This document shows, piece by piece, positions 12,235 through 17,656 of a DNA stretch of 64,000 nucleotides (its first letter is position 1; the number at the start of each line of letters is the position of its first letter). This DNA comes from Halobellus clavatus (GTDB lineage Archaea; Halobacteriota; Halobacteria; Halobacteriales; Haloferacaceae). The stretch is from assembly GCF_900107195.1 (NCBI RefSeq), contig NZ_FNPB01000003.1, forward strand, positions 1 to 64,000, read 5' to 3'. Under the pieces are notes generated by a model that had not been told where the DNA came from, ran no database searches, and saw only the letters and a program-made list of their open reading frames with translations. The position numbers and the translations under genes are program-made.

Positions 12235-14757
12235 TCACTCGCCGTCCACGAACCGCGATTCGACGTCGAGGTCCGGGAGGCGAGACCGATCTCCGGTCGC
12301 CGCCCCGGCGCTCGCGCGCTCGGCGAGCAGCCGGTGGACGCTGCGAGCCGATTCGCCCTCCGATGGCGCCCGCTGGACGTAGCTGCCGTCGGGTCGCATC
12401 TCCCAGGACTTCCGGTTGTCCGCGAGATAGCAGTCGAGCACGATTTCGAGTTCCTCGCGGATCTCAGGGTCGTCAACGGGGGCGACTGCCTCGACGCGCC
12501 GATCGAGGTTCCGTGTCATCCAGTCGGCCGATCCGATGAAGTACTCGGGATCTCCAGTACCGTCGACCTGGCCGGCTGACTGGCCGCTCTCCGAGTCCAC
12601 GCCGTTCTCGAAGTAGAAGATCCGCGAGTGTTCCAGGAACCGCCCCACGACGCTCGTCACCGTCACGGTGTCGGTGATCCCGTCGATCCCCGGTCGCAGC
12701 CGACAGATGTCGCGGACGATCAAGTCGATCTCGACGCCCGCGCGGGCCGCACGGTACAGTTCGGCGACGATCTCGGGATCCTCGAGCGCGTTCATCTTCG
12801 CAATGATCCGTCCCCCGCGGCCAGCGCGCGCGTGGTCGGCCTCGGCCCGGATCCGTTCGAGGAGCCCCGTCCGGAGGGTACCCGGCGCGACGAGGAGCCG
12901 CCGGTACTCCTCGTGGAACGAGTGGCCGGTGAAGAAGTTGAAGAGCTTCGTCAGGTCGTGGCCCACGTCGGGGTCGTTCGTCAGTAAGCCGAGGTCGACG
13001 TACCCCTTCGCGGTCTCCGCGTGGTAGTTGCCCGTGCCGACGTGAGAGTACAGCTGGACGCCGTCATCCTCGCGGCGGACGACGAGAGCGGTCTTGGTGT
13101 GAGTCTTGAGCCCGATGGTCCCGTAAGCGACGTGGATGCCCTCCTCCTCGAGTCGCTCGACCCAGCGGAGGTTGTTCTCCTCGTCGAACCGCGCCTTCAG
13201 TTCGACCATCACCGCGACCTGCTTTCCGTTCCGTGCGGCCTCGATGAGACTCTCGATCACCCGAGAGTCCCGCGAGGTCCGGTAGATGGCGGCCTTGATC
13301 GCGAGGACGTTGTCGTCGCGGGCGGCTTCCCGGAGGAGCGTCTGGACGGTCTTTTCGAACGAGTGATACGGGTGGTGGACCAGCACGTCGTCGTCGCGAA
13401 TCACGTCGAACACGTCCCGATCGGTCTCCTCGTCGACGACGCCGTCAAACCGGGGATGGGGCTGCGGGGTCCACGAGGGCAGCGAGTGCGCCGGCCGGTC
13501 GAGTTCGACCAGCCTGGAGAGGTGCCGGAGGTTCAGCGGCGGTTCACGCTCGAACACCTCGCGGTCGGTCAGGTCGAGCTGGTCCATCAGGAGCGATCGG
13601 ACCGCCGCCGGCGTATCTTTCGAGAGTTCCAGGCGCACGACCGTGGCGAACCGACGGTCCCGGAGAACGCCCTCGATCATCTCGATCAGACCCTCTGCGA
13701 CCTCCTCGTTCCGTCGCACCTCGGCGTTCCGGGTCACGCGGAACGTCGACCAGTCGAGCACCTCGACGTTCGGGAACAGGAGATCGAGATTGGCGGCGAT
13801 GAGGTCTTCGAGGAAGACGAACCGATCAACGGCGTCGCCGTCTCTCGATCTGTCGGTCGCTCCGGGGTTAGCGGTGGTGACGTCACCTGCCCCCGACTCC
13901 TCGCCGGTGTAGGTTCCAGGGTCGTCGACGACCGCGTCCACCTCCAGCAGACGGGGTTGATTCTCCGGGATCTTCACCCGGGAGAACTTCGGCTCCTCGC
14001 CCTCGCCTCTGGTCCTGACCGCGAGTGACAGCGAGAGGTTCGAGATGAACGGGAACGGGTGCGCCGGATCGAACGTCAGCGGCGTCAGCGTCGGGAGGAT
14101 CTCCGCCTCGAAGTGCGCCCGGAGCGCCTTCTGCTCCCGCTCGGAGAGAGAGTCGTGCTCGACGACCTCGATCCCAATCTCGGGGAGTCGCTCCCGGACG
14201 ACCGCACGGTAGCACGCATCCTGCCGCCGGAACATCTCTTCGAGGGTGTCGAGCGCGAGCCGCCACTGTTCTTCCGGCGTCTGACCGTCAGGCGTAAGAT
14301 CCGATACTTCGCCCGCCATCTGCTGTTTGAGCCCACCGATCCGCTTCATACAGAACTCGTCGATGTTCTTGGTGAACAGGCCGAGGAACCGGGTCCGTTC
14401 CAGCAGGGGATTCCGGGGATCCATCGCCTCGTGGAGCACGCGCTTCTGGAAGGAGAGTTCGGACAGCTCCCGGTTCAAATACCACTTCGGCTCCGCGAAG
14501 TCGACGTCGGTGCCGTCGAAATCCGGAACCGGTCCGGGGTCGGTCCCGTGGAGCACGCGCGTCGGACCACCTTTCGAGGGCTCACACACAGTCCCCACGC
14601 CCGAGCCGACGCTCGGTCCCGCACCGACGTCGTGGTCGTCTGCTCTGCTCGACCCGTCGTGGTCGCCCTCCTCACCCGACTTGTCGGATTTGTCGACGCC
14701 GTCCGCGTCCGCCGCCCCGTTGCGACCGTCAGTGTCGTCGGGAGGTGTTCCGCTCAT
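12235..14757 (-). CDS. ppk1: Polyphosphate kinase 1
   Basis: PPK1 reversibly polymerises the terminal phosphate of ATP into polyphosphate. The 840-residue protein starts with about 75 acidic, low-complexity residues, followed by the PPK N-domain (YLNRELSELSFQKRVLHEA, FTKNIDEFCMKRIGGLKQQM) and the two phospholipase-D-like catalytic domains. The probable phospho-accepting His is about residue 572 in SHVGTGNYH; KARFDEENN and the RDICRLRPG region follow the family pattern. The ATG is 12 bp after the stop of the phosphatase gene, so both are probably on one transcript. It is longer than bacterial PPK1 (about 690) mainly because of the acidic head and one insertion near residue 275-300. Confidence 0.95.
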   Translation of the reverse strand: MSGTPPDDTDGRNGAADADGVDKSDKSGEEGDHDGSSRADDHDVGAGPSVGSGVGTVCEPSKGGPTRVLHGTDPGPVPDFDGTDVDFAEPKWYLNRELSELSFQKRVLHEAMDPRNPLLERTRFLGLFTKNIDEFCMKRIGGLKQQMAGEVSDLTPDGQTPEEQWRLALDTLEEMFRRQDACYRAVVRERLPEIGIEVVEHDSLSEREQKALRAHFEAEILPTLTPLTFDPAHPFPFISNLSLSLAVRTRGEGEEPKFSRVKIPENQPRLLEVDAVVDDPGTYTGEESGAGDVTTANPGATDRSRDGDAVDRFVFLEDLIAANLDLLFPNVEVLDWSTFRVTRNAEVRRNEEVAEGLIEMIEGVLRDRRFATVVRLELSKDTPAAVRSLLMDQLDLTDREVFEREPPLNLRHLSRLVELDRPAHSLPSWTPQPHPRFDGVVDEETDRDVFDVIRDDDVLVHHPYHSFEKTVQTLLREAARDDNVLAIKAAIYRTSRDSRVIESLIEAARNGKQVAVMVELKARFDEENNLRWVERLEEEGIHVAYGTIGLKTHTKTALVVRREDDGVQLYSHVGTGNYHAETAKGYVDLGLLTNDPDVGHDLTKLFNFFTGHSFHEEYRRLLVAPGTLRTGLLERIRAEADHARAGRGGRIIAKMNALEDPEIVAELYRAARAGVEIDLIVRDICRLRPGIDGITDTVTVTSVVGRFLEHSRIFYFENGVDSESGQSAGQVDGTGDPEYFIGSADWMTRNLDRRVEAVAPVDDPEIREELEIVLDCYLADNRKSWEMRPDGSYVQRAPSEGESARSVHRLLAERASAGAATGDRSRLPDLDVESRFVDGE

Positions 14758-14769
14758 CGTAATCGAGGG

Positions 14770-15534
14770 TCAGGCGTTCACGTCGTCCGGCGCCAGCACC
14801 TTTCGGTCGGCGCGCTCCTCGTAGGTTTCGGTGGCGGGCACGCTCACGAAGCGGTCTCGGCGGTAGTCGTACGCCGTCAGCGAACCGCCGTAGACGCAAC
14901 CCGTGTCGAGGCCGACCGCCCACTCGGTCCGGACCGGCGCTTCGAGCACGGTGTGTCCGAAGAAGACGCGCGGCTGCCGGCGATACGTCTCGAACCAGAA
15001 CGGCCCGTCGTAACCCTCTCCGCCCGGCGATCGGCAGTTGAGCAGCGACTCGGCGTCCTGGTCAGTGAGCGGACAGCTTGGATCGACGCCGCCGTGGACC
15101 ACGAGCGCGCCGTCCCACGACAGTGCGACCGGGAGTGATTCGAGGTAGGTCTCGTCGGCCGGTCCCAGACTCGCCACCTGCTTGCGGTCGTGGATCAGTT
15201 TGTGCTCGTTGTTGCCGCGGACCGATACCAGATTGTCGCGCGATCGCACGTACTCGACGACTGCCGCGGTGTCCGGGCCTTTCCGAACCAGGTCGCCCAC
15301 GAAGACGACCAGATCGTCCGCACTCGGGTCCAGCACGTCCATCAGCCGGCGCAGTTCGTCGATACAACCGTGCACGTCGCCGACGACGTAGATGTCGTCC
15401 CACAGGGCGGCGTCGATCCGGCGATGGTGACCGGCGACCGACGGGTGGAAGTCCGCCTCAGTGAGCGAAACCGGCGACCCATCCGCTGGCTCTGCCGACC
15501 CGGCGGCTCGGTCCGATGTCGCTCCGATTTCCAT
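14770..15534 (-). CDS. PrpE/ApaH-like metallophosphoesterase
   Basis: A 254-residue calcineurin-like phosphatase with all metal motifs: GDVHG at 52-56, GDLVRKGP at 80-87, GNNEH near 106, and VVHGG near 146. The order and spacing match the PrpE/ApaH/bis(5'-nucleosyl)-tetraphosphatase and PPP-like bacterial phosphatases, so the substrate may be Ap4A-type dinucleotides or phosphoproteins. It lies directly upstream of ppk1 in the same direction. A TATA-like TCTATACA on the minus strand at about 15556-15563 is about 25 nt before the ATG, indicating a leaderless start. Its GTATATATT-rich upstream region is shared with the divergent CBS gene. Confidence 0.85.
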   Translation of the reverse strand: MEIGATSDRAAGSAEPADGSPVSLTEADFHPSVAGHHRRIDAALWDDIYVVGDVHGCIDELRRLMDVLDPSADDLVVFVGDLVRKGPDTAAVVEYVRSRDNLVSVRGNNEHKLIHDRKQVASLGPADETYLESLPVALSWDGALVVHGGVDPSCPLTDQDAESLLNCRSPGGEGYDGPFWFETYRRQPRVFFGHTVLEAPVRTEWAVGLDTGCVYGGSLTAYDYRRDRFVSVPATETYEERADRKVLAPDDVNA

Positions 15535-15781
15535 ATTGCGGTAATGGCTGATGATTGTATAGATGGTTGCTATGATTGCTTGGTCCGGCTACCCGCGACT
15601 ATATTGCGGTATATATTGCCACGGCTAGAGGATCCACCCACCAACGACCGATCGAAGACGGCCGGCTTGGGTCCGCTACCGCCGGTCAGTCGAACCTTCC
15701 CCCGGACGTCACGAACGGCTGAGAACGGGACGAAGTTTCAAGACAGCCCGAGGCGTACGTCCAGCAGGAGGCTACTCCGTT
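15535..15781. promoter_or_regulatory. AT-rich divergent promoter region with direct repeats
   Basis: This region is much AT-richer than the rest. The 11-mer ATATTGCGGTA occurs at 15533-15543 (overlapping the phosphatase start) and again at 15601-15611. The TATA box of the phosphatase lies between them. A GGAGG at 15767-15771 precedes the CBS gene. The repeats could be a binding site for a regulator of both divergent genes. Confidence 0.5.
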
Positions 15782-16927
15782 ATGGATATTACTGATATTG
15801 CCACTCCTGATTTCGTTGAAGTTGATGCCGGCAAGCGACTGGGGAAGATCCGCGCAATCTTCGAGCGGGAGAACCCTCGCGGGATCATCGTCACCGAAGA
15901 CGGCGACTACACCGGCGTGATCGGCGAGAAGCAGCTCGTTCGCTCTCGTATGGAAGACGACACGAAGGCCTCCGTCGTGATGAAGTCCGCGCCGCGAATC
16001 GACCGTCACGAGGACGTCCGCGAGACGGCGCGGATGCTCGTCGAAGGCGACGTGCAAATCGCCCCCGTCTTCGAGGGGGAGACGCTCTACGGTATCGTCG
16101 GCAGCGACGCGATCCTGCAGGCCGTCCTGGACAGTTTGGACGCGATCAGCGTCGAGGACATCTACACCGAGGATGTCGTCAACATCGGGGACAAGGCCCA
16201 CGTCGGGCAGGCGATCAACAAACTCCGCGAACACGGCATCTCTCGGCTGCCAGTCGTTGACGAGGACTCCGGGAACCTCTCGGGGATCGTCACGACTCAC
16301 GATCTCGTGGAGTTCGTCGTCCGCGACGACGACCGACAGGGACGCGGCGACCGACGCGGCGACATCGACCGGATGCTCGATCTGCCGGTGTACGATCTGA
16401 TGTCGTCGCCGGTCGTGACCGCCACGCCCGCCGAGAGCGTCGACGTCGCCGTCAGGCGGATGTTCGAGAACGACCTCTCCGGACTCGTCGTGACCCCGGA
16501 CGAGAACGACGACCTGGTCCAGGGGATCGTCACGAAGACGGACGTCCTGCGCGCGCTGACCTTCACCGAGGAGGAGAGTATGGACGTCCAGATCACCAAC
16601 GTCAGTCTGCTGGAGACGCTCACCCGCGAGGAGATCGTCGAATCGATCACGACGGTCGTCGACAAGTACCAGCAGATGCAGGTGCTCCACGCGCACGTGC
16701 GCTTTCACGAGCACAAAGAGAAGCTCCGCGGCACGCCGCTGATCCAGTGTCAGATCCGCCTCCGGACCAGTCACGGACAGGTCGCGGGCAGCGGGGAGGG
16801 CTACGGCGCAGAGCACGCCTTCCATGTCGCGCTCGACAAACTCGAACGCAACGTCCTCGAGATGAAGGGCCTCAACGCCGACGAGAAGTACCGCGGACAG
16901 CTCATCCGGAAGCTCGGCGAACTCTGA
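15782..16927 (+). CDS. Four-CBS protein with HPF/RaiA-like C-terminal domain
   Basis: The 381-residue protein has four CBS motifs (about 5-55, 65-115, 130-185, 210-265), which in this superfamily bind adenosine nucleotides. The last 100 residues follow the pattern of ribosome hibernation factors (HPF/RaiA/YfiA): MDVQITNVSLLETLTREEI, a helix VESITTVVDKYQQM, strands LHAHVRFHEHKEK and LIQCQIRLRTSHGQVAGSG, and the closing helix EHAFHVALDKLERNVLEMKG. This layout suggests an adenylate-sensing factor that binds ribosomes at low energy. The HPF assignment is by pattern only. A GGAGG about 10 nt upstream supports the ATG. It is divergent from the ppk1-phosphatase operon. Confidence 0.8.
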   Translation: MDITDIATPDFVEVDAGKRLGKIRAIFERENPRGIIVTEDGDYTGVIGEKQLVRSRMEDDTKASVVMKSAPRIDRHEDVRETARMLVEGDVQIAPVFEGETLYGIVGSDAILQAVLDSLDAISVEDIYTEDVVNIGDKAHVGQAINKLREHGISRLPVVDEDSGNLSGIVTTHDLVEFVVRDDDRQGRGDRRGDIDRMLDLPVYDLMSSPVVTATPAESVDVAVRRMFENDLSGLVVTPDENDDLVQGIVTKTDVLRALTFTEEESMDVQITNVSLLETLTREEIVESITTVVDKYQQMQVLHAHVRFHEHKEKLRGTPLIQCQIRLRTSHGQVAGSGEGYGAEHAFHVALDKLERNVLEMKGLNADEKYRGQLIRKLGEL

Positions 16928-16963: not shown

Positions 16964-17656
16964 TTACCGGTCGGTGCTCTCGATCCCCTCGTCGGTAATC
17001 TCGAACGTAACGCTCTCGCCGACCGCTTTCGCTCTGTGCTTTTCGAGCGTCGCTCGGCGGTTGCCGCCACGGAACCGTTCCAGTCGCACGACCGCGCCGG
17101 TCCAGTGTTCGAGGGTGTGGCCCCCAAGCGCCCGCGTGCGGTCTGCGTCCGGATCAGTGAACACCTGATTCGTGATGATGACCGCGAGGTCGTGTTTCCG
17201 CGCGAGCGAGAGTAGGTGCGTCACCTGGCTGGCGACCCGGCGGAGCGAGTCGCCGGCGTCGGTGTCGCCGGTGCGTTCGAGGCGGTAGAAGCCGGTCGCG
17301 CTGTCGAGGACGATCAGGTCGGCACGCGGGGCGAACTCCTCGGTGTCGCGGACGGCTTCCTCCTGTTCTTCGAAATCGTGTGCCTCCGAGACGATCAGCC
17401 TGGAGGTGACGTCCTCGACGGATTCCTCCTCGGCGACGGCCGCGGCGAGTTGGTGGAAGCGATCGATCGAGAGGCCCTCGGTGTCGATGTAGACGGCGCG
17501 CTCGCCGGCGGCGGCGACGCGGACGGCCGCCGACAGGGCGACGTTCGTTTTCCCGGCCGCGGGCGGCCCATAGAGCTGCGTGACGGTGCCGCGCTCAACT
17601 CCCCCTCCCAGCAGACCGTCGAGCGCTCGGCACCCCGTGGTGAGTGCGTCGGTCAC
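16964..17656 (-). CDS. radB: DNA repair/recombination protein RadB
   Basis: RadB is the short archaeal RecA/RadA paralogue that modulates homologous recombination. The 230-residue protein has Walker A GPPAAGKT at residues 30-37, Walker B in ADLIVLDSATG, and the RecA-core segment LAVIITNQVFTDP. It lacks the N-terminal HhH domain of RadA. It starts MTDALTTGCRALDGLLGGGVERG, the standard RadB opening. Its start faces that of the TctA-like gene across 124 bp, so the two share a divergent promoter region. Confidence 0.93.
   Translation of the reverse strand: MTDALTTGCRALDGLLGGGVERGTVTQLYGPPAAGKTNVALSAAVRVAAAGERAVYIDTEGLSIDRFHQLAAAVAEEESVEDVTSRLIVSEAHDFEEQEEAVRDTEEFAPRADLIVLDSATGFYRLERTGDTDAGDSLRRVASQVTHLLSLARKHDLAVIITNQVFTDPDADRTRALGGHTLEHWTGAVVRLERFRGGNRRATLEKHRAKAVGESVTFEITDEGIESTDR

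Follow-up and report, generated by a model that had tools for sequence, protein, structure and literature searches.

A probable HibA-type ribosome hibernation factor with four CBS domains and an HPF domain, encoded beside radB in Halobellus clavatus

The archaeal protein HibA joins a four-CBS module to an HPF/RaiA domain and occurs in 47% of archaeal genomes (PMC13324472), with reports from all major archaeal lineages. The P. abyssi protein on the 70S ribosome (PDB 9SR9, among other entries) was described in April 2026; it blocks 70S ribosomes, and most of the hibernating-like 70S particles of stressed P. abyssi carry it (PMC13324472). On the 50S subunit its CBS module is seen in three positions and, in P. 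abyssi, the loop between CBS3 and CBS4 enters the peptidyl-transferase centre (PTC) (PMC13324472). HibA binds AMP, ADP and ATP at CBS3/CBS4, AMP best with a Kd of 12 uM; its ribosome binding in vitro showed no clear change with AMP or ATP, and deletion of the gene in Thermococcus barophilus delayed regrowth and lowered the 70S pools (PMC13324472). The P. abyssi protein (Pab0961) also co-purifies with RadB. Among haloarchaeal proteins, a paper of 2025 describes HVO_2384 of Haloferax volcanii as carrying tandem CBS domains and a ribosome-hibernation domain (PMC12607858). In Haloferax it co-purified with an inactive variant of the acetyltransferase Pat2, and that it interacts physically with RadA and RadB has been cited as a personal communication.

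We analysed a window of 64,000 nucleotides of the Halobellus clavatus genome (contig NZ_FNPB01000003.1, positions 1 to 64,000), and the features of the CBS-HPF fusion gene, here called hibA, and of its neighbour are collected in Table 1. Between Halobellus orthologues, most hibA differences fell on third codon positions, with a dN of 0.02-0.06 and a dS of 0.28-0.61 for the HPF part (dN/dS of ~0.06-0.1) and a dN of 0.08-0.11 and a dS of 0.38-0.87 for the CBS part, so that purifying selection was stronger on the HPF domain than on the CBS part. Given the third-position excess and these values, hibA is a real gene whose C-terminal domain is the more constrained. Open reading frames running across it on the reverse strand were rejected as shadow ORFs of a GC-rich gene, as the selection fits the forward frame.

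Table 1. Coordinates of hibA, its parts and the adjoining gene in the window
Feature	Position	Strand	Basis or remark
Possible Shine-Dalgarno sequence, AGGAGG	15766..15771	+	Read in the sequence; ATG 10 bases on
hibA, 381-aa CBS-HPF fusion protein	15782..16927	+	ATG-start ORF; full-length match to P. abyssi HibA, PDB 9SR9 chain H
CBS1 and CBS2, ~residues 1-118, without TxxD nucleotide motif (GEKQ, GSDA)	15782..16135	+	Pfam CBS; alignment
CBS3, ~residues 119-182, TTHD motif (T171, D174)	16136..16327	+	Pfam; alignment
CBS3-CBS4 loop, residues 183-202, corresponding to PTC loop 190-207 of P. abyssi	16328..16387	+	Alignments; function from PMC13324472
CBS4, ~residues 203-262, TKTD motif (T251, D254)	16388..16567	+	Pfam 203-259; alignment
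HPF domain	16568..16924	+	Domain model and Foldseek; profile match to HibA 4.5e-17
radB, convergent, directly downstream of hibA, separate gene	16964..17656	-	NCBIfam RadB equivalog, 418 bits

A search of the hibA product against the PDB sequences returned two full-length matches, 9L96 chain a (E 1.5e-70) and 9SR9 chain H (E 1.8e-49). Its N-terminus contained four CBS stretches (Pfam, E 2.8e-35, above cut-off), and together with the CBS fold of the model these give the four tandem CBS domains of HibA. When the full AlphaFold2 model was searched with Foldseek, matches to CBS modules were obtained, with M. acetivorans SriA/SriB at rank 1 and Dri and AMPK gamma also present.

The S/T-x-x-D motif is typical of CBS nucleotide sites. 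In the Halobellus protein TxxD was found in CBS3 and CBS4 and in neither CBS1 nor CBS2, and across the 29 aligned sequences T251 and D254 of CBS4 were present in all (29/29), as were D174 and either T or S at position 171 of CBS3 (29/29 each). As far as the alignment can tell, this pattern fits the single adenine-nucleotide site of HibA at CBS3/CBS4, at which the Halobellus protein would also bind. The long CBS3-CBS4 loop of the HibA type was present as well, with a conserved GxGDRxGDxxRMLDLP that aligned to the P. abyssi loop and with R191, G193, R197, L199, D200 and P202 invariant among the 29 sequences; the confidence of the model (pLDDT) was lowest at residues 185-193, inside this loop.

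The first-pass annotation had read four CBS motifs followed by an HPF/RaiA-like C-terminus, and this architecture was borne out by the exact ORF, the Pfam CBS matches, AlphaFold2, Foldseek and the homology to HibA; all of the motifs that it quoted (MDVQIT, VRFHEHKE, QIRLRTSHG and ALDKLERNVL) were located. Its by-eye layout of the HPF domain was right in the overall fold and overlooked the fourth strand and the GEGYGA turn, as AlphaFold2 placed strands at residues 269-272, 301-315, 318-329 and 332-341 and helices at 282-295 and 343-380. The pTM of the full model was 0.58, a low value that leaves the arrangement of the CBS and HPF parts uncertain. Modelled alone, the HPF domain reached a pLDDT of 81, and the structural comparison with HPF/YfiA that had been proposed for the C-terminus came out positive: Foldseek ranks 1-27 were all YfiA, HPF, RaiA, pY or RafH, with query-normalised TM-scores of ~0.54-0.69.

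At the level of sequence, the profile of the HPF domain matched 9SR9 (HibA) at E 4.5e-17 and bacterial HPF chains at E 0.2, which is not significant. The Pfam family S30AE, whose gathering cut-off marks membership of the bacterial HPF/RaiA family, matched residues 283-362 at E 0.0014 with 19.8 bits, below the cut-off of 23.7, and the NCBIfam HPF match was also under its cut-off. S30AE matched 21 of the 29 aligned homologues at E 0.1 or better; its search of the Halobellus genome returned no match, so Pfam alone cannot find the HPF part. As the direct profile match is not significant and the Pfam match is sub-threshold, the connection to bacterial HPF is made through structure and through HibA as an intermediate. 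H311, E313, R316, G317, L320 and a GEG(Y/F)G turn were conserved in the alignment of the HPF part, and E-K-x-R-G and G-E-x-x-G-A were common to P. abyssi HibA and the Halobellus HPF part. The domain was not basic, with 15 K+R against 19 D+E, and the whole protein was acidic, with a computed mass of 42,405 and a pI of 4.75. Proteins of haloarchaea are generally acidic.

Relatives of hibA were matched at a threshold of E 1e-25 in 291 of the 292 genomes of the class and, outside it, at E 1e-40 in further families of the phylum. The one genome without any match (G131) perhaps has an assembly gap. While the Halobellus genome contained a single HibA, its remaining matches being weak and CBS-only, some genomes had up to four copies. 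The tree set a nearly universal type (99/99) apart from a second group of haloarchaeal sequences (100/99), which includes PDB 9L96 and is marked by a CBS3-CBS4 loop that is long and rich in Gly and by a tail with a conserved GWW/GWL, for example FGWLLEE. Members of this second subfamily (L050, L051, L053, L055-L059 and L061) gave genomes as many as three additional copies. The root of the split is uncertain because the single copies of three deep-branching genomes group beside the second subfamily yet lie within ~4 kb of radB. One genome, G129 (L049), seems to have the second subfamily only.

The radB gene was convergent with and adjoining hibA in 62 of 80 named Haloferacaceae loci (L091-L170), with a median gap of ~114 bases, and in 28 of the 39 loci of a first set from several families; in several genomes it lay elsewhere, away from hibA. 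This position is suggestive and does not prove an interaction, as inherited gene order can explain it. On the other side of hibA, divergent to it, genes for a polyphosphate kinase 1 and an ApaH-like calcineurin-type phosphatase were found (12235-15534, reverse strand). A stress or energy cluster made up of this pair and hibA was considered and dropped, as the pair was beside hibA in none of the 80 named relatives.

By every feature that can be tested from sequence and model, the Halobellus protein is a HibA. The full-length matches, the HPF profile, the folds of the domain and of the CBS module, the TxxD pattern and the near-complete distribution in the class make it very probable that it is a HibA orthologue and a ribosome hibernation factor, its binding of ribosomes and nucleotides and its physiology being expected from its homologues. 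What speaks against this is the identity of only ~30% to P. abyssi HibA, the sub-threshold Pfam score of the HPF domain and its non-significant profile match to bacterial HPF, the non-basic composition of that domain, though acidity is general among haloarchaeal proteins, and the pull-downs of homologues with recombination and replication proteins. By homology, the N-terminal four-CBS disc would sit in the empty tRNA sites of the 50S subunit, where the CBS3-CBS4 loop could extend into the peptidyl-transferase centre; this would block the idle 70S ribosome and protect it from decay, and growth could restart faster. One adenine nucleotide, preferably AMP, is expected between CBS3 and CBS4. The suggestion of the first-pass annotation that the protein senses energy state finds support in the preference of HibA for AMP, but not in its ribosome binding in vitro, which neither AMP nor ATP clearly changed. 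That the likeness of the C-terminus to HPF is a product of chance, in an ordinary CBS regulator of some other process, is hardly credible: HPF matches under the Pfam and NCBIfam cut-offs would be in keeping with it, but a protein whose structure was solved on the ribosome is homologous over the full length, and the fold search is topped by hibernation-type factors only.

The recurrent radB neighbour (62/80 and 28/39 loci, and ~4 kb away in the three deep-branching genomes), the co-purification of Pab0961 with RadB, the HVO_2384-RadA/RadB personal communication and the recovery of homologues in pull-downs with recombination and replication proteins could also be read as signs of a nucleotide-responsive RadB/RadA partner whose main work is DNA recombination or replication and which binds ribosomes secondarily or not at all. 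We consider this improbable, because HibA is present on most idle 70S ribosomes of P. abyssi and its loss lowers the 70S pools of T. barophilus, the HPF domain is the most conserved part of the protein and would have no evident use in a protein devoted to recombination alone, and convergent genes are not co-transcribed; moreover, the proposed regulation of HibA through sequestration by DNA-repair proteins would unite both activities (PMC13324472). In a related scheme, which extends the hibernation factor reading instead of replacing it, HibA would plug ribosomes under stress and be held by RadB or other partners during growth, with AMP at CBS3/CBS4 shifting it between them. The conserved nucleotide motif and radB proximity, the co-purifications with RadB (P. 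abyssi) and with the Pat2 variant (Haloferax) and the sequestration idea of the HibA authors (PMC13324472) speak for this scheme, but ribosome binding by P. abyssi HibA had no clear nucleotide effect, the haloarchaeal RadB interaction is unpublished and gene proximity by itself is no proof of interaction, and we regard it as a doubtful, if possible, extension. A bolder reading, unlikely as a whole, would make the two haloarchaeal subfamilies functionally distinct: the one with the long Gly-rich loop would be accessory, and the near-universal, radB-linked one would tie hibernation to RadA/RadB recombination by an AMP-sensitive hand-over.

The reading of the Halobellus protein as a hibernation factor is supported and not new. 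In the first-pass annotation, a CBS-HPF fusion in haloarchaea would have extended the CBS-domain ribosome dormancy factors of other archaea; such a fusion is not new for haloarchaea, as HVO_2384 had already been recognised as the haloarchaeal version (PMC12607858) and HibA is known from all major archaeal lineages. What is added here is the class-wide distribution, the TxxD pattern of CBS3/CBS4, the invariant loop residues, the second subfamily and the radB neighbour, of which the last two are worth keeping in view. The haloarchaea include tractable genetic models and nearly all carry the gene; HVO_2384 offers a route to the role of HibA in haloarchaea, the relevance of AMP in vivo and the reality of the RadB link, while the second subfamily lends itself to comparing how loops of different length act on the ribosome. 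No paper on PDB 9L96 or on the Sri proteins turned up in our literature search, and the keywords used brought up none that dealt with both haloarchaea and ribosome hibernation.

Among the known systems, P. abyssi HibA (Pab0961, UniProt Q9UYR4) shares with the Halobellus protein the four CBS domains, the C-terminal HPF/RaiA domain, TxxD in CBS3 and CBS4 and a CBS3-CBS4 loop of ~18-20 residues, and the two are collinear over residues 3-378; on the other hand, their identity is ~30%, the Halobellus form is acidic (pI 4.75) and its loop sequence is different (GRGDRRGDIDRMLDLP). HVO_2384 is alike by its published description of tandem CBS domains and a C-terminal ribosome-hibernation domain (PMC12607858, PMC3820547) and was reported with 42,521 Da and a pI of 4.87, compared with 42,405 and 4.75 in Halobellus, while other Haloferax orthologues showed 72-74% identity to the Halobellus protein and an adjoining radB. 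The 406-aa chain a of PDB 9L96, named 'CBS domain-containing protein', has the same architecture (E 1.5e-70) but belongs to the paralogous haloarchaeal subfamily with the long Gly-rich loop and an extended C-terminus. Dri of Pyrobaculum and SriA-D of Methanosarcina, solved on archaeal ribosomes, have a similar CBS fold; however, Dri consists of two CBS modules and lacks the HPF domain (PMC13324472), and the Sri chains of 270-340 aa lack HPF/RaiA and match the CBS part only. The bacterial HPF/RaiA/YfiA proteins lack CBS domains and are not significantly similar by sequence alone, but they share the fold of the C-terminal domain, which the Halobellus protein joins to a single four-CBS module.
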